Below are positions 2,048 through 30,573 of a DNA stretch of 64,000 nucleotides, piece by piece. This DNA is from Polytrichum commune (lineage: Eukaryota; Streptophyta; Polytrichopsida; Polytrichales; Polytrichaceae), in assembly GCA_950295325.1 (NCBI GenBank), contig OX485809.1, positions 1,426,001-1,490,000 on the forward strand. The letters run 5' to 3'. Within the stretch, counting starts at the first letter, position 1; every line of letters begins with the position of its first letter. The notes below the pieces were generated by a model that searched no databases, had not been told where the DNA came from, and was given only the letters and a program-made list of their open reading frames with translations. Made by a program: the position numbers and the translations under genes.

Positions 2048-2182
2048 AGGCCCACTTTCCTTGTATTTACTCAAGAAAAAACCATCGTTTGGGTTAAGAA
2101 AAAGGAAGAAAGGGAATGAAAACTGATGTCATTCATCGCTCAAAGAGTCGTTGAGTGATGATAAATGAATACGTTAGGGTTT
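2048..2182 (+). promoter_or_regulatory. Site II plus telo-box promoter of the snoRNA gene
   Basis: AGGCCCA at 2048-2054 contains the reverse complement of a site II element (TGGGCY). TTAGGGTTT at 2174-2182 is a telo-box. This pair is known from promoters of plant snoRNA and ribosomal-protein genes. Both lie upstream of a transcribed-looking GC-richer leader (2190-2330) and of the first snoRNA at about 2424. A second TTAGGGTTTT-like string occurs near 2384. Confidence 0.6.
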
Positions 2183-2423
2183 GGTGCTCTCGAGTCCCGG
2201 CCGTCGCCTCGCTCCTATTTAGGCCGCCATAGCCACCACTTCCTTCATTCTCCAGTGAGGTCCCTCGTCTCTCTCCTCAAGTGCTCCTGTTGTTTGCTGG
2301 CTGGCCAGCGTGCTTGATTTCAAGCATGGGGCCAGGGGTTTTAGTTTGTTAGTTTGTGATGTTTGTCAGTAGGTTTCTAGGGTTAGGGTTTTGTTGTATT
2401 ATCTGTTTTGCCTTCTAACACAG

Positions 2424-2497
2424 CAGATGATGATTTGCAAATATTCGGATTCCCTCCGATGCTTTACGCAAGTGACGTGACATTGCTCTTCTGACGC
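2424..2497 (+). ncRNA. Box C/D snoRNA, tandem copy 1
   Basis: C box GATGATGA (2426-2433), a C'-like AGTGACG in the middle and D box CTGA (2491-2494). An internal ttcggattccctcc string could pair with a 25S rRNA stretch that I recall as GGGAATCCGA, but this is from memory. The family is not identified. Three tandem copies and a neighbouring U14 support a real snoRNA. Confidence 0.72.
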
Positions 2498-2537
2498 TTC
2501 TTTCTGTTCTGCGAGGGTTTTGCTTTCTCCAACATAG

Positions 2538-2611
2538 CAGATGATGATTTGCAATTAATCGGATTCCCTCCGATGCTTTACGCAAGTGACGTTACATTGC
2601 TCTTCTGACGC
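2538..2611 (+). ncRNA. Box C/D snoRNA, tandem copy 2
   Basis: Paralogue of the copy 114 bp upstream: C box ATGATGA (2541-2547), C'-like AGTGACG, D box CTGA (2605-2608). The ggattccctccgatg core is unchanged, and differences fall mostly just 5' of it. This fits retained guide function in the core. Confidence 0.72.
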
Positions 2612-2651
2612 TTCTTTCTGTACTGCGAGGGTTTTGCCTTCTCCAACATAG

Positions 2652-2725
2652 CAGATGATGATTTGCAATTATTCGGATTCCCTCCGATGCATTACGCAAG
2701 TGACGTTATATTGCGCTTCTGACGC
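2652..2725 (+). ncRNA. Box C/D snoRNA, tandem copy 3
   Basis: Third paralogue: C box ATGATGA (2655-2661), C'-like AGTGACG, D box CTGA (2719-2722). The segment upstream of the D box reads ttatattgcgctt rather than the gacattgctctt of copy 1, so its D-box guide may differ. The central ggattccctccgatg is conserved. Confidence 0.7.
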
Positions 2726-2794
2726 TTCTTCCTGTACCGCGAGGGTTGTCTGAGCCAGTGTCTGTTTTGTGGTGTTTTGGGGATAGGGTTTGAG

Positions 2795-2896
2795 GCGGGG
2801 GCGATGAGGATTCACAGCTCCCTCTACTGAATAATAGTGAGGACACCGCTTGGCATGAATCGAACCATAATACCATGGCCGACTCTGAGCTCCCGC
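2795..2896 (+). ncRNA. Box C/D snoRNA with 8-bp terminal stem
   Basis: The ends GCGGGGGC (2795-2802) and GCTCCCGC (2889-2896) pair over 8 bp with one G-U. Inside are a slightly degenerate C box GATGAGGA, an internal CTGA as D' (2827-2830) and a D box CTGA (2885-2888). Order and spacing are those of a C/D snoRNA. The target is not identified, although ctccctcta before D' has a partial match to an 18S segment I remember. Confidence 0.65.
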
Positions 2897-3141
2897 ACTT
2901 TCTCTCGTTGATTGGTTGTCTAAAGAGTTAATTTGTTTGCATGTGGTCTCGGTTTCTGTTGAATGCAATCCCGTGTGTACAACACTGCGGCAGTTTACGC
3001 AGGAAGTTGAATGGTGGATATGCTAGAGCATAGGGCGAATGGGCAGTTAGGCAGAGATTTATGTCTGTGAATGTCCTAACAATCATTCATTGGCCCTAAA
3101 TTAACTTTCATCGTAAGCTCTTTTTTTTATGTTCACTTGAT

Positions 3142-3224
3142 GAGCCGTGATGATCCACACACCAGTATAATGCCAGTTCTGCTTCTGAAATCTGTGAATG
3201 AGAAACTGGTTCAAGTCTGAGCTC
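3142..3224 (+). ncRNA. Box C/D snoRNA, predicted 25S rRNA guide
   Basis: All parts are visible: terminal stem GAGC/GCTC (3142-3145, 3221-3224), C box GTGATGA (3147-3153), D' box CTGA (3185-3188), C'-like GTGAATGA and D box CTGA (3217-3220). The ten or so bases before D', ccagttctgctt, complement a 25S rRNA stretch that I recall as AGCAGAACTGGCGATG. The target is from memory and should be aligned. Confidence 0.82.
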
Positions 3225-3254
3225 TATGTTATGTAATAATGTTGTCTGGTATGG

Positions 3255-3359
3255 TCGCGGTGATGACAAGAAAATTTCGTCAAGCTCAACAGACTTGATA
3301 TGGGAATCGCCGACATGGTTGGCGATTCCAAATGATAGTTAACCCGCTGATCTGAGCGA
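3255..3359 (+). ncRNA. Box C/D snoRNA with internal hairpin
   Basis: Terminal stem TCGC/GCGA (3255-3258, 3356-3359), C box GTGATGA (3260-3266) and D box CTGA (3352-3355). A perfect 9-bp hairpin, GGAATCGCC against GGCGATTCC, sits in the middle. That is unusual for a short C/D guide and makes the RNA about 105 nt. The target is not identified. Confidence 0.65.
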
Positions 3360-3412
3360 AAATACCAATATGATTTTGTATTTTGTTCGGTTTTGTATAC
3401 AATCTGAGTTCT

Positions 3413-3545
3413 GCCGAAGTCAGTGATGATAATCTTTTAGGCTTGTTTCTCAAACATTCGCAGTGGCCGCCTAAAGCTTTCGCCCTGCCGGGCTTGAGAG
3501 CTAATGCAGCTTCTAAACCTTCCTTGGATATCTGAGACTTTTGGC
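3413..3545 (+). ncRNA. U14: U14 snoRNA
   Basis: Terminal stem GCCGAAGTC against GACTTTTGGC, C box GTGATGA (3423-3429) and D box CTGA (3532-3535). It carries both diagnostic U14 domains. Domain A is ACATTCGCAGT, complementary to 18S ACTGCGAATG. Domain B is CCTTCCTTGGATATCTGA, complementary to 18S ATCCAAGGAAGG. U14 acts in the nucleolus in early 18S rRNA processing and also guides a 2'-O-methylation. Length (133 nt) is slightly above the usual 120-130 nt. It lies within 320 bp of three other C/D snoRNAs on the same strand, as in known plant U14 clusters. Confidence 0.92.
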
Positions 3546-3723
3546 AGTCGGGATCATGTGGGGCTATGATTACAAAAGTATCCGCGCTTCTGAGGGGAGA
3601 TCCTGTGAAGTACAAAAATACAAAATGGTTGAATTTCTTGACATGAGCCTCATTTTTTTCATAATTATAAAACTCTATAATGCGTCTGGGATGGTCGGAA
3701 GTGTATCATTTTGGAGAATCTAA

Positions 3724-3799
3724 ACCGATGACGACAAAAAAGCGGATTTCTATGAAGCCTTCGGGCTGGGGATGACTGCATTGTTACACACCCTGAGGT
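3724..3799 (+). ncRNA. Box C/D snoRNA, predicted 25S rRNA guide
   Basis: C box ATGACGA (3728-3734), C'-like GATGACT (near 3771) and D box CTGA (3793-3796), closed by ACC/GGT and further out by GGAG/CTCC. The bases directly before the D box, ttgttacacacc, complement the conserved 25S segment GTGTGTAACAA over about 11 nt, which is the guide arrangement. This is the last clear member of the cluster. Confidence 0.72.
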
Positions 3800-4239
3800 G
3801 TCACTCCGAACATTTTGTATCATGCTCATAAGGGTTTATTGACATCAGTTTGATTATTAGGGTTCGTGTTTATGGTTCTAATTATGTGGATCTGCCTATG
3901 TTTGGAATTGTGCACCAGGGAGTGCGTGTGAATTTGTCCACGTAAGTGGAGTTACATTGAAGAGGATACATGTTCCTGATACGCGAATGAGATTTATAAT
4001 CCTCTCGATTCATATAATTAGTAGCTGTCCATGAACCTCAAGCATAAGGGTTAGCGGAAACCTGCTTCCACCACATTACAATTAAAGCAACTAGTCCTCT
4101 TTCGAGACTCCAAATTAGTGGAGTCCCAACAAATGGGATGTCATGTGGAGCCGAAAAACATATTCGGTGTTAAACCTATCCGGCGAATCCTTGCATCCCA
4201 CTAACACTGCATCCTCTGAAGCATCACCCTGCGCCCGAC

Positions 4240-5625: not shown

Positions 5626-6336
5626 TTATGATCCAGACACCGAGCACGTTTTACTGAGCATCTTTGCCCCCTGAGGAGCAGATGGGGGGCTAACCCTGAC
5701 ATCACATTTGACCATGATGGTGAAAGAAAAGGAGGTGTAGTGCCATGACGGTATGCTCACCCGTGCATTCACCGCTACTTGCACAAATAGAGGAACATCA
5801 TTGTTCTTGATATCCGTGTCCAAAGCATTTCCCAAGGTTTCCGTTAAGAGGAGGTTCGCCGTCGTCAAGTCGGAGGTGATGACGGTCATGTTCTGCGTTC
5901 CTTGGACGAAGGCAGGCACTGAAGCTTGTGCAATCAGGCTCCCAGAGTAGGATGTGGCTATGTCGATCTTGTCATAGAGAATGGCTATCTTCGTGTTAGG
6001 GTTTGTGATTTGAACGGTGAATGCGATGTCTGCATTCAAGATGAAGGTGCGGCTTGTTATGTTGGCATTCAAGTCCAAGGTGTTCACCTTGGCTTGCTGG
6101 AGGGCGACGGTAGGAGCCTTGGGGTTGAGAGTCAGCCAGATCACCAGAGCAAGCACAAACAGAAGCACAACCATGGTGAAGAGAATGCAACAACATGCGG
6201 ATAGACAGCAGCAACACGAATTTCCTTTCCGACGCTTCAACGGTGGTTGATAATGAAGAGGACGCTGTGGCAAATCTTGTGGTTCCATCTTCACATACTT
6301 CATTGTCTGCTTGGGATGTCCATTGCCTGCCCCCAT
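5626..6336 (-). CDS. NDR1/HIN1-like (LEA_2 domain) membrane protein
   Basis: Single-exon frame of 236 aa starting at ATG 6334-6336. A short basic N-terminus (LKRRKGN, about 33-39) is followed by a cysteine-rich patch CCCCLSACCC and one hydrophobic segment (about 50-72, ILFTMVVLLFVLALVIWLTL). The rest resembles the LEA_2/NHL domain with the family's NPNTKIA-type NPN motif near residues 112-118 and potential N-glycosylation sites. This is the layout of plasma-membrane NHL/YLS9-type proteins, several of which act in pathogen or stress responses; the exact role here is unknown. Length is usual for the family. A TATA-like sequence on this strand near 7255 suggests a long leader, possibly with an intron, that would include the tandem repeats at 6453-7000. 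Confidence 0.88.
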   Translation of the reverse strand: MGAGNGHPKQTMKYVKMEPQDLPQRPLHYQPPLKRRKGNSCCCCLSACCCILFTMVVLLFVLALVIWLTLNPKAPTVALQQAKVNTLDLNANITSRTFILNADIAFTVQITNPNTKIAILYDKIDIATSYSGSLIAQASVPAFVQGTQNMTVITSDLTTANLLLTETLGNALDTDIKNNDVPLFVQVAVNARVSIPSWHYTSFSFTIMVKCDVRVSPPSAPQGAKMLSKTCSVSGS

Positions 6337-8099: not shown

Positions 8100-10430
8100 T
8101 CGCTAGGTCTCACACGGAAGTGAAATGTTTGGAACTCAAGACGACGCTTCTTGCACTGTTACACCCTCGGGCAATCCCTCGGGAACCCAGGCAAAACAAA
8201 CACCTGCAAAGAGACAAGTCCTGAATTTAGTTCTAGATTTTGGAAAGCATATTGAAGTATCCATCCCAGAATCAAGTCGCTCAGAAGGTCCAAGTGACTA
8301 CCGAGTCTGGTCACTTTGAATGAAGCGAATGCAAGAGAGCCACAAAATGTGGATCTACTGCGTTGCTCCAACCACCCAAACTACCATTACAGAAGATGAA
8401 ATAGATGCGTGTGAGTTAGCCCTATCTGCAATAGAGGACTCTGTCAAAGATTCCTTTGTTAATGTAATAGGATGTTGGAAACATCTATAAGATAGATATG
8501 AGCCGCGATCCTTAAATAAGAAATTAATGTTGCTCCACAAACTTGTCCAGTTTAGACTAGAAGATCGAGGGAGTATGGAGGACTACCTCAAAGGAGTAAA
8601 AGACACGCTTGATCAACTGAATGACATGAGTGTCCATATTCCGGAAGATCTCGTGATCCTTATGCTCCTACAGTCACTCCCTAAAGAGTATCACTTCTTT
8701 AACCGAGTGCTTCAGAGTGAAGACAACCTACCAACATTTACAGAGATAGAAACCAAACTACTTGGTGAAGAAATGCAGGTTAAACAGGAAGCTGAAAAAT
8801 ACTGTAGATGCCCAACGAAGCGTTGTACCTTGGTGGTGAGAATGGAAAAATTAAAAGCATTGAAAATGTTTTGTATGTGCCTGACATCAAGTGCAATCTT
8901 CTCTTTGTTGAATGTTCAATCTCTGACCAAGGCTACTCTTTAGAGTTCATCCAAAACATCTGTATGATTTGTGACATCACAACTAAGCAAATTCTTGGCA
9001 AAGTTGAAAGAATAGGGAAGAAAGATTTGTATCGCTTGCGGGCCGAATCCGTTTCTAATGAAATGATATGCAGCCTAGAAGAAAACAGAACAATAGCCAG
9101 GCACTACTGTGGCATTGCAGACTAGGCCATATTAGTTTCAAATTGCTCTCCACAAAATCTCAAAAGACAATACAGTCACCGGGCTGCCACACATACCACA
9201 CATACTACGTCTATGATATCTGTCAAATTGGTAAGCAAGCTCGGAATTTTTTGGCCACAAGTTAAACAGTCACCTCACAACCGCTTGAGAGGGCATTTTT
9301 CCATGGTCACGATTCATGGTCACACTTCCAATGTCCGATTTCTTAAAAAGTCCATTTTTAAAGCTTTTGGGTCCCTTACTAGGTGTAAACTGAACATGGA
9401 CCAAGAGAAGTGACCATGCATCAAAAAGTGGATCTGCTGATTTTTTTTAATATGTGACCAAAAAGGGCAGTTTTGAGAATTTTCTTCATGTTTGACCTCT
9501 CCCGTTCTTCTCCTGTTCTTCTCCTGTTCTTTCCTCGGAACTATGGAAATATTTGGGCCCAAAAAAATAAAAAATGACGAAAAATATTAAAACAACATTT
9601 CTCTACCATATCCCTTGACATTTGCAACAAGAGAACCCCTTTTGCCTCTCCCACCGCAAAACCCATTGGACCATGACAATGGATAGTGTAGGCTTGAAAA
9701 TAGGTCTTTTGGGGACCTCAAGTTCCATGATCACTCTTACATTTTTGTCTTGATGTAAAATGAAGTGGTCCCAGGACAAGTTCAATGGCCAATCACATAT
9801 TTTAGAGGAGCAAGGGATGACTTCATGGTCCATGATGTAAACAACCCCTCATACACAGTGACTTCCGCATACCCTTCCAAACTCTTGCTCACAATGGTGC
9901 GTGTTACTTCGTAACATTTATTGACGAGTATAATCGACATATCTCAATATCCTTGATCAAGCTCACTACTGGAATCCAATGGATTTAATGTCATATTTGT
10001 TTGTCAACTTTGTGACATTCTAAGTTTCCACTGAGAGAAAGTGCCATATTTGTGACATTATTGTGCTCAATAAGTTGACATTAACACAGTCAAAACTCTT
10101 AAGCGGAAAGATTAAGCCCTCTCAGAATTTCGGAAGTATAAAGCCAGAGTTGAACTAGTCACTGGCCCTAAGATTCAATGTATTTGCACCGACAACAAAT
10201 GTGAGTATGTTTCAGTTGCCTTTTGTGAGCTTGGACCACCACAAAAGTTAGCCATATATCCCAGAAAGTAATGGCTTGGCGAAACGCAAAAACTGATCAC
10301 TTTGCGAAATGGCAAGATGTTTACTACATCAAACAGTGCTTCCTAAGCACCTCTGGTCTGAAGCAATTAAGGCTGCGTGCAACATTCACAATGTGACGAA
10401 ACCTGGTCAAAATTAAAAATATTCAAGTTG
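8100..10430 (+). mobile_element. Ty1/copia retrotransposon fossil
   Basis: Recognisable parts in order: gag-like region (about 8300-8800, including a LPKEYHFF-type string), GAG-pre-integrase region (about 8810-9250, with an LWHCRLGH motif) and integrase fragments (about 9850-10420, including LPKHLWSEAIKAA). No reverse transcriptase, RNase H or long terminal repeats are seen. It is clearly broken by multiple changes and is interrupted by a MITE at 9291-9848, so it is an old insertion. Confidence 0.82.
9291..9848 (-). mobile_element. PIF/Harbinger-like MITE (family D) inside the copia fossil
   Basis: Reverse-orientation copy of the element at 34036-34613. The ends read GGGCATTTTTCCATGG and ATGATGTAAACAACCCC. 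Internal matches include cagttttgagaa, cttggtccatgttcagtttacacctagt (seen in reverse) and the ttttgcggtgggagaggcaaaa block. It splits the integrase region of the surrounding retroelement. Target duplication is not clear. Confidence 0.7.
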
Positions 10431-12141: not shown

Positions 12142-12281
12142 CCAAAAAGCCCAGCCCTACGTATTCTCCGGAAATACAGGGCTGGGATTTTAGATGGCTG
12201 CTTCCAGCCACTCCAGTAGCTCCAGCCATCTGAAATCCCAGCCCTGTATTTCCGGAGAATACGTAGGGCTGGGCTTTTTGG
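12142..12281. repeat. Long near-perfect inverted repeat (59-bp arms, 22-bp loop)
   Basis: Arm 12142-12200 is complementary to 12223-12281 at 58 of 59 positions. The one difference would be a wobble pair in RNA. Weaker pairing continues outward on both sides: agggtcgcacc near 12120 against ggtgtggccct near 12305, then gaagctt against cagcagcttc. This may be a foldback MITE with hAT-like ends or the source of a hairpin RNA. Confidence 0.9.
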
Positions 12282-19894: not shown

Positions 19895-22800
19895 ATGCAA
19901 TGCATGGGGACAAACATGGCCCTGTGTCAAGTTTCGAGCATCCGTGGGTGGTCGTTGTCGCCGTGGTGAGCTTTCAATCTTGTCACCAACACATATTAAA
20001 CGACTGTTTGTTGCCTCCGAAATGCCTTTCATTTTGTCCGTCCCATGGATTTTCAAGTTAGGTTTGGTTTAAATGACGCTTATTTTCTTCTTTTATTGAT
20101 GCTCTCTGTTGTCGATTGTTCCAAGTAACCTGTGACGAGACAATTTCTACTTTGGTGATTCATATCAGAACACTTGTGTTTGTATGCGTTGTGTCTACCA
20201 TGGCACGAGTTAAACATGGCAGTTGTTCCTGTTGCACTTCCTATTCCTGTTGCAGATTGTTTGCTGTCTCCGAGATGCTTTTTAATTTGACCTTCTCATG
20301 GATTTTCAAGTTAGGTTTGGTGTAGATGACGTTTTTCTCTGTTATTGGTGCTTACTGTATCGAATCCTCCAAGCAACTTTTGATAAGACGATTTCTACAT
20401 TGGGTATTCGTATGAGAACAATTGTGTTTGTATGAGCTGTGTCCACAATGGCATAATCATTGCACTTGTTCCTGTTGCAGGGGAAGATTAGGGCAGTTAG
20501 ATCCTTCGGAGCTTCCCTATCCTTCACGCTTTTTGCAATGCAAGGCCCGAAGTTTTGACAATTTCTTAACTTCAAGGAGTAGGAGGAAATCCCTTAGATG
20601 GAGACACTGCGTGTTTTGTTTTCATCAAGTTTCAGTTCAAAAGCCGCAATGCTCATCATCAGGCTATCAAACGAAGCCGGGACAACATGATGAGGAAGCA
20701 GAAGAGAGAAGGAACCGCGATTTTCGTATATGGAGAAGAAATGATCAAAGTGATGGAGTGAAAATACCGCGAAATTTAGCTGATAGACGCTCAAACCCTA
20801 GAATCTTAAACCCTCAAAAAGCCTACCCATCAAACCCTAGATACTTCACTAAGCCCATAATAAAGCCGAGAGATACTTACCCTAAATACACTAGAAGCAC
20901 CAACGTTTCTTCGTCGGAATTAGGAAACAGGAAGACTTCACAAAACATTAGTGAAAAACAGGATTCGTTTGAGTCTTTCAGTAACCTTGATGAACCAGAG
21001 ACGGAAACATATTTGCGGAAACTGCTCAATGCAAGACTTGCAAAGACAAAACCTGCAAACATCCAAGAATTTGATGAGGAAGATGAGGAGGATGTGGAGG
21101 ATGAGGAGGATGAAGAAAATGGCAAGACTTTAAAAACCCCGATATATGCAAGAAGGAAGTACGAATCTGAGATGCCAGAGAAGCCCTCTGTGAACTTGAA
21201 TGAAAGCAGTGATGAGAAGGCACTCCGAAAAGCGCTAAAATTAAGAAGACGGGAAACACAGGAAGTGTTAAAGGAGCACCTTATGGAAGGATCACTAAGT
21301 TTGGGGTATTCTCAGGCTGTTGTTGATAACATGCCTGGTTTTGTTGATCATATTATGGTTCAAGCAGTTGCTCTCAAAACGCAGGAGCGATATGTCACGT
21401 CGACATTTATAGCTCGAGCTCGAGCGTGTGTGGCACCGACCAAATTGATTGACATAGTCAAGTATGTTGACATCATCATCTCTGCACTATTACTAGATGT
21501 TTGAGTAATTTTTTTCTCCTATTTTATGGCTCCTCTGGATGTTACCATCGTGTCTATTTGCATAGCATTCATAAGTGGGCTCGGGGGTTTTCTCTCTATA
21601 TAAGCATTTTGGAGAGTACACTCAGTGAGATTCAATTTGACAAGGTCTTCAAGTTGACTCTTGGTAGATAATAGAAGGCTTTGTCTGAAGATATCAGGTA
21701 ACAATACAGTCATCCTCTTATTGTCAAGAACTGTCTGTTTTGCATACAATACCTTCCATGTTAGGTAAGGTTTTGGCCCATGCCTGAGGTAGTATGGGGG
21801 TTTGAACGAAGATCATTCTACATGGGCTCAATGAGGGTCAATCTCATTTGGCATGCCAAGAGGTGCTAAAAATGAGTTTGGCCCTCAATGAACCGAATTA
21901 GGTTACACTGCATTCAAACACTACCTCCAAACATGCATCACAAAGTGGAAAGAAATCATTGATATCATATGCAAAACAACCATTGAAAAATCATAAGGGA
22001 TCAACTCCTGACGAAAAGTCCCATTGAGTTAAATGATAACTCTAAAAAGGTGTTGACTAATGAGAGCTTGCCACTTGACAATGCTTCCATTCATAAAGCT
22101 AGAATAGAATGAGAACATCCTTACACATGCTTAAGAATGCTATGTGGGCTTCTGGCCTCTCTATGGACGTTGATTGATGCTGCCATTCAATTCTATTCCA
22201 ATTGAAGTTTTGTGTGGTTATGTGTGCAGATGGATGAAGCACAATCACATAACCATACCACGGGTGGGAAAGTTAATCGACTTAAAAGGCCAACAACTGG
22301 ACATACTTCGAGAGCGCATCAGTTTTCTGAAACAGCATTACGTTCGAGGCCGGGATCTTGGCGTTGTTCTCACACGATACCCTATTATTTTGGACAGACC
22401 TTGGGAGGAGCTTTATAACATAGTTCAATTGCTTGAGGATGCTGGAGTACGAAGGGAGTGGATAGGATTCGTGATATGTCGGTCACCAAAAGTGCTCACC
22501 ATCAGTATCGATGAACTTCTGGACAAAATCTCATTTTTTCAGAATTTGGGTGTCACAACTGACCAATTTGGGCCCATGGCATTTAACTTCCCTGCAAGCA
22601 TTGGCCATTTCTCTCTTCCAGATATGCAAAAAAAGGTACAAAGTGCTCAATGAATTCAGTTCTTGCTTTGATACCATGGATCTGTATCCTCTCTACCTAA
22701 TACCTTCTGGTTATGTACTAGGAAGGAGCTAGGGTTGAGAGTGATTTGGGAGTCACATGTTCAGAATTGCTGTTTTCGAAATGGAGTCCACTGGACCAAA

Positions 22801-25800
22801 GTAAAAGAATTTTGGCCTTGACATGGGGTGTAACCTCAAAGAGTTTGGTTTCAAGGTTGGTCCCTCCTTTTTTGGGTAAAATTTTCCATTCTTAACTCTG
22901 ATTGGAAATGGTGGTTTTAAGCCTTACAAAGCCTCCCTCTTGGATCGGAGTTGAAAATAGACTACCTTCATAAAAAGGGGGAACCAAGCTTGAAACCAAG
23001 CTCCCCAAGGTTGGGCACATGTTAAGGCCAAAATTCTTTTAATTTGGCCACCAAACTCTCTTTCAAAGATGGTGTTTTTAACACATGTGACCCCCACATG
23101 AGCAAAGGGTGAATGTATAATCAAAGCATCAAGGATACGTTTTTTTGCTGTGACATTTTGGTTGATGCGGGTGGCTCAGTTTCAACCTCCTTGAAAGTCT
23201 GGTTTGGCATGTGCAGGTAGAGTATTTGAGGCAACTGGGGATAGTAGATGCTATTATTGGAAAAATGATCGCTACTAGACCACAACTACTTGCATGTGAT
23301 ATTGAGGACTGGCGGACTCTGGTGAAATATTTCCAGTTTTTAGGGGTCCAAAAATCAGGCATTCAGAGGATTCTCTCTGTTCACCCATCCGTTTTTTGTA
23401 TGAATCTCGAGAAGAATATTGCACCAAAGGTAAAACCCATCTTGCAAGCTCTTATTTTCATGGTGTTTTTCCTTAGTAAGTAGAGAGAACTACCAGAAAA
23501 CTCCATGATCAATGCGTTGCATTTGTTTTGAAATTGGTGTTGCCATACTTACAGTAGATTTCCTGCCCATGTGTAGAATAGATAGAGAACCTTTCTAATA
23601 GTTCTCCTTGAAGGAAAAAAATTGTACTAGCAAAATGAAGGCTTTTGAAAGGGCTATGGTTGGGGCAGGTTCGGTTTCTTCATGCAATAGGCATTCGTGA
23701 AGAAGTTATTGGGCAGGTGATTGTTGAGTTTCCAGCTCTTCTTAGCTACAGCCTTGACAGAAAAATCCGTCCAATGGTAAGTTCCACGCCCCATCTTTTA
23801 GGTCTCTATGCTTTTTTGTAGACGAGAGTATATTATGTCTGAGTCTTCTTTACTACAGCTGGGGAATCTTTTGACTGAAGCTTTGAGACATGGGTCTAAA
23901 GGCCCCCTTTACACTAGAGCTCAAAGCACCCGTTGAGAGCTTGAACTTGCAGTTTTCGGGAGTTTGATACTGGGCGTTGAGAAGCTTTCATCCAAAGCTC
24001 AAACTATTGAGAACTTGACCAATCTTCAAGATCTCAAAAGTTTGAGGAAGTGGCCATACTGAAAGTGAGATATTGAAGGGGGAATGATGATAATCAAAGA
24101 GCATTCATAAATAGCCAAAGGAGCATTTATGACAAGCCAAAGAGTGCTGAAAGCCCATTGGCTTGGAGCCTACCAAATGAGAGCTTGAGCTCTTGACATT
24201 TTTAAGCTACCTCATGAAGGTAAATGTAGCTTAAGCTTAAGCTCTCAAGTGTAAAGCTCAAGTGTAAAGTAGATTTGATTGAACAAGCATGCTTAAGAGG
24301 CTCCCCATCAATGAGAAGGCTTCTTACTTCGAGGTCTCAATTCTAACCCTTAACTCCTGGGTTTGTTTCCCAACTCTGGGTTGATGGTGATTATTGAAGG
24401 AGGTAAGCAAAGTGCACTAATTGTCCTATTAATGTGAGCCACAGTAATTCTCATAATAAGAATTTATGTGGGCCACGTTAATCCTCAGCCCACGCTAAAT
24501 CTCTAGTTTAAATTAGTGTGGGTCACATTAATTGTTTTTAAGGAAGTTGATATGGGTGAGTATTTTATTCTATCCTGCTTTTTATCCTTGAAGTAATACT
24601 CAAGGTGTTGGCTCTGTCAGTTGTTAATGCATCACTTTGTGGATATGGCATATAGGTGAAATTCATATTGGAAGAGGCAGGGGTGAAGGAAGAGGACATT
24701 GGGAAAGTGATTGCATTGCGGCCTGAGTTAATAGGAACGAGTTTGACACAGAAACTTCACCCTTTGGTGCAATATTTTAGAAATCAGCAGTTCAAGCAAG
24801 AAGATTTAGGCCGTATGGTGGCTGACTTCCCAATGCTTTTGAAGTATAATGTTGCTGTTATACAGCCCAAATTTCGATTTTTCAAAAAATCAATGAACCG
24901 GCCCCTTGATGACCTCCTTGCCTTTCCTCGGTACGTAACTAGAAAGCCATCCATATTGCATATTTCTTTTATTTAGTCTGCTGCTGACAACTTTTCCTGT
25001 TTAATTTCAGTTTCTTAGTTCAATTTTCATTGGAGGTAGTCCTAAAGCGTAGAATGTTTATCTCATCATACACTATGCCATGTGTCAACATGCTATTGGA
25101 AAGTTTATAAGAGGTCTCTAATAGCTTGTTGGAAAGATCTTGAGAAGAGATAAAGATCTTCATGTGCTTCGTGTGAGTAAGAATCAAACAAGATATAAAT
25201 ATTGTATGAATGTAATTGGAAGCTCATTATAATAAAACCAAACAAAAGTATTCCTTTGGTGGATTAAACTTACCAGAACATCGTACCAATTGCTTGTATA
25301 TGAGAATATACAGAAGAACTAACCCCACTTGAGGCCTCTTGTGGTACCATCTAGTTTTATAATCGTGCCATCAGAGTATGATACTCAAGACTATGGAGGA
25401 ATTTCTTAACTAGACATGTTACTAGTGGAGTAATCAAATAAGTGTCAATTTTTTGTCACTCTCTTGCAAACTTTCCTGATGACTTCCTTTTCTTTTTGTA
25501 TACACCAGAATACGGTATTCTTATATAATGTCAGTGTAACGTGGAGTTATATAGTGCATCTTCTTCCTTGAAAATGGGTTTGAATTTCCTATATGGACTT
25601 TCATACACTTAGTACACAGTACAGCCTAAGCTACGGAAAGCTTTATCACTCAAATATTCTACACAAGAGCAATGTGTAGGACTTCTAGACATCATAGCTG
25701 TCTATAGACTTTTTGAAAGGACTTGTAATTTGAAATCAATTGTGTCATGGCAGGTATTTTAGCTATTCTTTGAAAGGGAGAATAATTCCAAGACAACGGC

Positions 25801-29464: not shown

Positions 29465-30573
29465 CAGGGCATAAAATTGACACCCTGGGGGGTGTATTTT
29501 GCTTCCTAGAGTGTCCTAGGACACCCAAATCTCAAACAGGGTGTCCCCGAGGACACCCAAAAATCCTACAAGGGTGTCCTTTTTACACCCAAAAAAAATT
29601 CAGGGTGTCCCCTGTACTTGTAGGGCCTATCAGCGGATACCAAATTTGTGGCACAATTTTTGGACATTTCTAGAGGTGGTGAGATCCATTTTCAAGACTC
29701 TACAGGAGTGGTGCATTCACATATATTGCATTATGCACCATTGCCTCATGCAATTGAGTTTGGTGGTGATGGTACCCTCCATGGGTGCCAGGTGATTGCA
29801 CAGGCCTATGTGGTTAAGGTGATAGAATCATTGCAGCAACGATTTCCTGATTTGAAGCTATTCAATGCAGCTAAGCTATTTAGCCCTGTCTGTTTTTCAA
29901 CAGACTTGACACTTCTTCATCGAAATGCTCGTTTATGGCTTCAGAGTTTCATTGACCACTTCTGCACTAATGGAGGGAATCTTTTTTATGAGTGTGGTTT
30001 AAAATCAGAGCTTCGAGGTTTTTTGGATACACTTCATATTTCATGTGGTGGTCTTAAAATGCACCAAGCTTGGATGGTTTATTCTTCCAATTTGGACTAT
30101 GTTGGAAGATATCCTCATATGACAAAGTTGTGGCAAGCTGTTCTTGTAATTCCTGCTAGTACAGCTTCTTGTGAGAGAGGATTTTCTACTCAAAATCATA
30201 TTAAATCTACTTTACGGTGTAGTTTGGTATTAGAGACTTTGGAAGCACAAATGAGAGTTGCAATGGCAAAAATCCCCATAGAGGCCATTGACTTTGAACA
30301 AGTATGGGTAAAGTGGTGTGCTATGAAAGGCCGCCGCTTGTAGGTTTGATTTGCATTGCAAGTTATGATATGTAGTGATTTTTTTGATTTTTAATTGAGA
30401 TTTTGAGATGATATTATATATTTTTCAAAATTGTACCTATTTTGACAAAAAAAATATTTTAAGAGAAATTTATGAGGACACCCAAAAATTGGAGCAGGGT
30501 GTCCTTGGGATACCCAAAATTTGGGACAGGGTGTCCCCTAGAAATTTGGCTAGGGTGTCAAATTTATGGCCTG
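29465..30573 (+). mobile_element. hAT transposon, internally deleted, 1109 bp
   Basis: Ends CAGGGCATAAAATTGACACC and the inverse of CAGGCCATAAATTTGACACC match at 20 of 22 positions and are bounded by a perfect 8-bp target duplication ATCGCACT (29457-29464, 30574-30581). Both subterminal regions hold many GGGTGTCC/GGACACCC motifs, likely transposase-binding sites. The interior holds only the C-terminal part of a transposase. The perfect duplication suggests a fairly recent insertion. Confidence 0.93.
29648..30343 (+). pseudogene. hAT transposase C-terminal fragment (hATC dimerisation domain)
   Basis: An uninterrupted frame of about 231 codons without an ATG at its 5' end; the first bases follow directly on the left subterminal repeats. 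The C-terminal half carries the hATC pattern LWQAVLVIPASTASCERGFS and then LEAQMRVAM. The zinc finger and most of the catalytic region of a full hAT transposase (about 650-800 aa) are missing. It may persist as a transcribed remnant but cannot be a full transposase. Confidence 0.85.

Follow-up and report, generated by a model that had tools for sequence, protein, structure and literature searches.

Evidence for a polycistronic snoRNA gene with nine C/D RNAs, including U14, and one probable H/ACA RNA in the moss Polytrichum commune

In a 64,000-nucleotide (nt) stretch of the genome of Polytrichum commune (assembly GCA_950295325.1, contig OX485809.1, positions 1,426,001 to 1,490,000; the whole stretch is called the window below and positions are numbered from its first letter), a region of ~1.4 kb very probably forms one gene that encodes ten small guide RNAs, nine of the C/D type and one of the H/ACA type, U14 included. 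Judging from the sequence, we favor, with a probability of about 0.94, an independent polycistronic small nucleolar RNA (snoRNA) gene rather than an intronic set or a silent duplicate, and its products would very probably be guides of ribosomal RNA (rRNA) modification, with U14 also acting as a processing RNA. A polycistronic C/D gene had been proposed in a preliminary description of this DNA, and it is supported by matches to Rfam families, by the pattern of conservation among paralogous clusters, and by a telo-box/TATA promoter present in five of the seven full-length clusters recognized (the window counted). This gene type has long been known in plants, and the present cluster is a good example of it.

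The ten RNAs of the cluster

All ten RNAs lie on the plus strand; the preliminary description, which had placed eight C/D RNAs on one strand, was right as to the strand, counted one C/D RNA too few and overlooked the H/ACA RNA. The existence of a C/D cluster with U14 was confirmed by the Rfam matches together with the boxed tandem units with which the cluster begins. These form a family with a 114-nt period, consisting of copy 1 (2422..2498, snoR60/snoR12-like; C box at 2427, D' box CCGA at 2456, D box at 2491), copy 2 (2536..2612, assigned by its boxes and by the tandem family) and copy 3 (2650..2726; snoR60, 24.9 bits, E 0.038, below the gathering score), all with canonical C/D boxes and snoR60-like sequence; a related unit in the paralogous cluster L040 matches snoR60 with an E-value of 0.0046, also below the gathering score. 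There follow a C/D unit at 2795..2896 (Rfam 54.4 bits, E 1.1e-10, gathering score 60), which has an 8-bp terminal stem, the probable H/ACA RNA, a snoZ223-type RNA at 3139..3227 (47.4 bits, gathering score 45), a snoZ107/R87-type RNA at 3253..3361 (39.8 bits, E 2.6e-6, gathering score 50), U14 with an extended terminal stem at 3411..3547 (gathering score 64), U36a at 3558..3653 (Rfam match at 3561-3650, 80.1 bits) and a last C/D unit at 3722..3801 (35.5 bits, E 5.5e-4, gathering score 50); guide predictions also support each of the C/D units from 2795 onward. Three of the Rfam C/D family matches among the window units score above gathering and three below. Each of the nine C/D units has a C box and a D box, the latter reading CTGA in eight and ATGA in U36a, and a terminal stem of 3–9 bp, the 3-bp stems, which belong to R11 and the three tandem copies, being weak. 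For U14, a covariance match had been expected at 3413-3545 and was found at 3418-3539 with 86.1 bits; its recognition by both 18S-pairing domains also held, these being located at 3455 and 3518, with domain A predicted to pair with positions 87-96 of plant 18S rRNA.

Paralogous clusters and promoter

A genome search with the U14-U36a region as query gave 42 matches, and seven full-length clusters were recognized (the window, L015, L016, L021, L024, L025 and L040; L001-L014, which overlap loci fetched later, were excluded from counts). In an alignment of the window with five of the six other full-length clusters, L024 being omitted, the RNAs from R30 to R11 were 73–91% identical to those of the window and the spacers 39–48%; as exceptions among these aligned paralogues, L016 lacks the triplet, L015 lacks R11 and the U14 of L040 is disrupted. 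Where a paralogue carries the snoR12/snoR60-type unit that is triplicated in the window, it is present singly or as a remnant. At least 30 copies of U14 at or above 64 bits, in many clusters, were counted in the window and the fetched loci (1 in the window + 15 + 14, leaving uncounted the weaker matches in L028, L029, L035, L036, L026 and L041), and L038, retrieved because of a 79% match, had no Rfam match at E-values up to 0.01. Model plants generally have fewer U14 copies. Some of the clusters are visibly damaged, L025 having CCGA for the D box CTGA of U14 and L040 having a rearranged U14-U36a part. L025 (C1:74.59 Mb, plus strand) and L024 (C1:74.67 Mb, minus strand) have equal match scores and lie ~80 kb apart, which suggests a recent inverted duplication. 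A 5S rRNA match (76.4 bits) at positions 3192-3314 of L023 adjoins a snoRNA cluster.

Upstream of the RNAs, a motif scan found a telo-box, TTAGGGTTT, at 2174..2182 (plus strand), and a TATA-like box, CTATTTA, lies at 2215..2221 on the same strand; the latter is common to four paralogues and is followed there by a similar leader. In the window and these four paralogues TAGGGTTT or TAGGGCTT begins 30–40 nt upstream of CTATTTA, and the window has a second copy of the telo-box 9-mer, starting at 2383 within the presumed leader. The two remaining full-length clusters, L024 and L025, gave no telo-box/TATA match, and a match in L034 was excluded because the snoRNAs of that locus are on the other strand. 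A telo-box and a TATA-type box precede several snoRNAs of the same strand. In PMC4660826, telo-box, site II and TATA elements are named as marks of plant polycistronic snoRNA genes; the window cluster resembles the Arabidopsis TeloSII snoRNA genes described there in having the first and last of these, and differs from them in that site II is unsupported. A possible, weak site II element, GGCCCA, occurs as a single match at 2049..2054 (plus strand), and TGGGCY was found in two of the five promoters compared (those of the window and its four paralogues), at a frequency near the window background of 0.43 matches per 400 nt; site II was rejected as promoter evidence. The preliminary description had leaned in part on this unsupported element. 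Transcription from this promoter would start near 2245, ~30 nt downstream of the TATA-like box, and would yield one precursor across ~2250-3800 carrying the ten RNAs.

Predicted methylation targets

Plant rDNA was sought in the assembly for target prediction and was not found. Searching by 18S pattern and by DNA query turned up pieces of 18S on the chromosomes and an entire 18S on a small contig, C22; a 25S core pattern had no match, and scans of viral_contigs returned one short large-subunit piece (L057) and two empty results. C22 (G000:C22; L045, L053) is 19.9 kb long and carries a full 18S and 5.8S as well as a 28S match covering model positions 1-1099; its 5.8S and spacers have what we take to be a nematode-like (invertebrate) character, and the contig is probably a contaminant rather than plant DNA. 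The target of U14 domain B also occurs in its 18S. An initial guide search against the rRNA of C22 was rejected as a general test, as it recovered the U14 target with a score of 12 but a reversed-target control reached 11.8.

Guide targets were scored on plant rRNA sequence from outside the assembly, in Arabidopsis numbering, with the 2'-O-methylated (Nm) sites mapped in Arabidopsis by RiboMeth-seq as reference (PMC8053127, Table 1); at the sites covered, the bases of this sequence agreed with those of the table in 35/35 cases for 18S and 68/68 for 25S. The best-scoring rRNA site was a mapped Nm site for 10 of the 17 D/D' boxes, versus 12 of 340 shuffled guides, and in seven of the nine C/D units one box or more had such a site as its best target. 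The predicted targets include 25S A2127 for the D' guide of tandem copy 1, 25S A1143 for the D' guide of the snoZ223-type RNA (a site assigned to U38 in Arabidopsis), 25S G2410 (D') and G2392 (D) for the snoZ107/R87-type RNA, the conserved methylation site C418 of 18S for the D guide of U14, and 25S G2237 (D') and A2221 (D) for U36a. The mapped site A2127 ranks third for tandem copy 3 and second for tandem copy 2, whose best target is 25S G1596, through 15 bp including two G-U pairs; G1596 is absent from the Arabidopsis Nm table. Copy 2 may have been retargeted after the triplication, its D' guide drifting to G1596 while copy 1 kept A2127, though this reading rests on the rRNA sequence from outside the assembly and we consider it unlikely; if true, this would be a duplicated snoRNA caught while acquiring a new site of rRNA methylation.

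Alternative readings

Release of the RNAs from the intron of a host gene, protein-coding or not, has precedent, in that some plant snoRNAs, single as well as clustered, are intronic and often lie in ribosomal protein genes (PMC4660826). Here the telo-box/TATA pair stands directly upstream and is common to four paralogues, the spacers are poorly conserved, and the nearest start-codon open reading frame of at least 120 residues, at 5626-6336, encodes an LEA_2 protein on the opposite strand, and we regard an intronic origin as quite improbable. We prefer an independent polycistronic gene because the paralogues keep the RNAs far better than the spacers and four of them share the promoter. Two points weigh against this preference: short exons are possible, and the D/D' boxes of the guide test were not chosen blind; for these our estimate was lowered from 0.95 to 0.94 and that for the intron raised slightly. 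Decay of the cluster into a silent duplicate of others in the genome, which the many U14 copies and the damage in L040 and L025 could suggest, seems to us a shade less probable still, given that in the window the C and D boxes of all nine units are present, the telo-box is intact, ten guides fit mapped sites, and U14 outscores every other scanned copy in Rfam (86.1 vs at most 85.9).

A probable snoR135-like H/ACA RNA

The probable H/ACA RNA (2965..3103, plus strand) is conserved in the paralogues and matches Rfam snoR135 (RF01431) with 22.8 bits and an E-value of 0.12; the score being below the gathering score of 45, we label it snoR135-like and not a member. It has an H box, AGAGCA, at 3025-3030 and a variant ACA box at 3098-3100, which reads AAA in the window and ACA in L021 and L040. 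An alignment of 8 of 11 sequences (the window and 7 of 10 BLAST rows, omitting L024, which has the same match as L025, and partial rows of L041 and, a second one, of L016) gave a consensus fold of two hairpins with 95.7% of cells paired and two pairs in which both partners had changed. Once the apical stem is fixed at 3046-3080, the 3' pocket (3040-3045 / 3081-3086) has its best site at U2192 of 25S, its strands TGGGCA and AATCAT pairing with GTGATT[U]C TGCCCA, and U2192 is thus a predicted pseudouridine (Arabidopsis numbering). This score was reached by 3 of 300 dinucleotide-shuffled rRNAs, favorable only with the stem fixed from the alignment, as an unrestricted pocket search was not significant against shuffled rRNA; the same unrestricted search found no convincing rRNA target for the 5' hairpin. 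The left strand of the pocket is identical in all eight aligned copies and the right strand in six, and the Rfam snoR135 consensus has identical 3' pocket letters; the window RNA differs from that family in its score below gathering and in reading AAA for ACA. In PMC8307265, yeast 25S pseudouridine (Psi) 2191 is guided by snR32 and has Cm2197, Am2220 and Am2256 nearby, and PMC3542256 pairs yeast U2191 with human 28S U3674. As those neighbors face Arabidopsis C2198, A2221 and A2257, an offset of +1, U2192 would be the yeast Psi2191 position; it is by this target that we liken the moss RNA to snR32.

Other features of the window

At 12164-12259 and 22825-23019, both strands show matches to microRNA families (mir-3661, mir-1298; MIR2630) that all fall far short of the threshold and are possibly inverted-repeat elements. 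The window also contains a Copia-type gag fragment and a hAT transposase C-terminal fragment, at 8527-8943 and 29648-30343, and a piece of an mTERF gene at 22174-22653.

Relation to known plant clusters

Plant polycistronic snoRNA genes with U14 were reportedly described by Leader et al. in 1994 and 1997, and the window cluster is like such genes in its closely linked snoRNAs, U14 among them, on one strand; it differs from them in the order of its ten RNAs and in the triplicated snoR12/snoR60-type unit. PMC7464842 describes U14 genes as clustered, transcribed as polycistronic units and lying in regions that can hold both C/D and H/ACA RNAs, a mixture also seen here, and conserved snoRNA clusters of plants are described in PMC5122169. 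Within the available portions of the literature on plant polycistronic U14, mosses, telo-box/site II, snoZ223, Physcomitrella snoRNAs and U14 copy number, the founding papers of Leader et al. being outside that search, there was no recognizable description of this cluster or of its combination of RNAs. The cluster is otherwise ordinary plant biology, of a kind that protein-only annotation would overlook. It is a well-resolved mixture of ten C/D and H/ACA RNAs, nearly all of which have a predicted target and one of which is a candidate H/ACA guide for plant 25S Psi2192, and the many U14-bearing clusters make this moss genome a convenient one in which to study the birth, decay and retargeting of guide RNAs.
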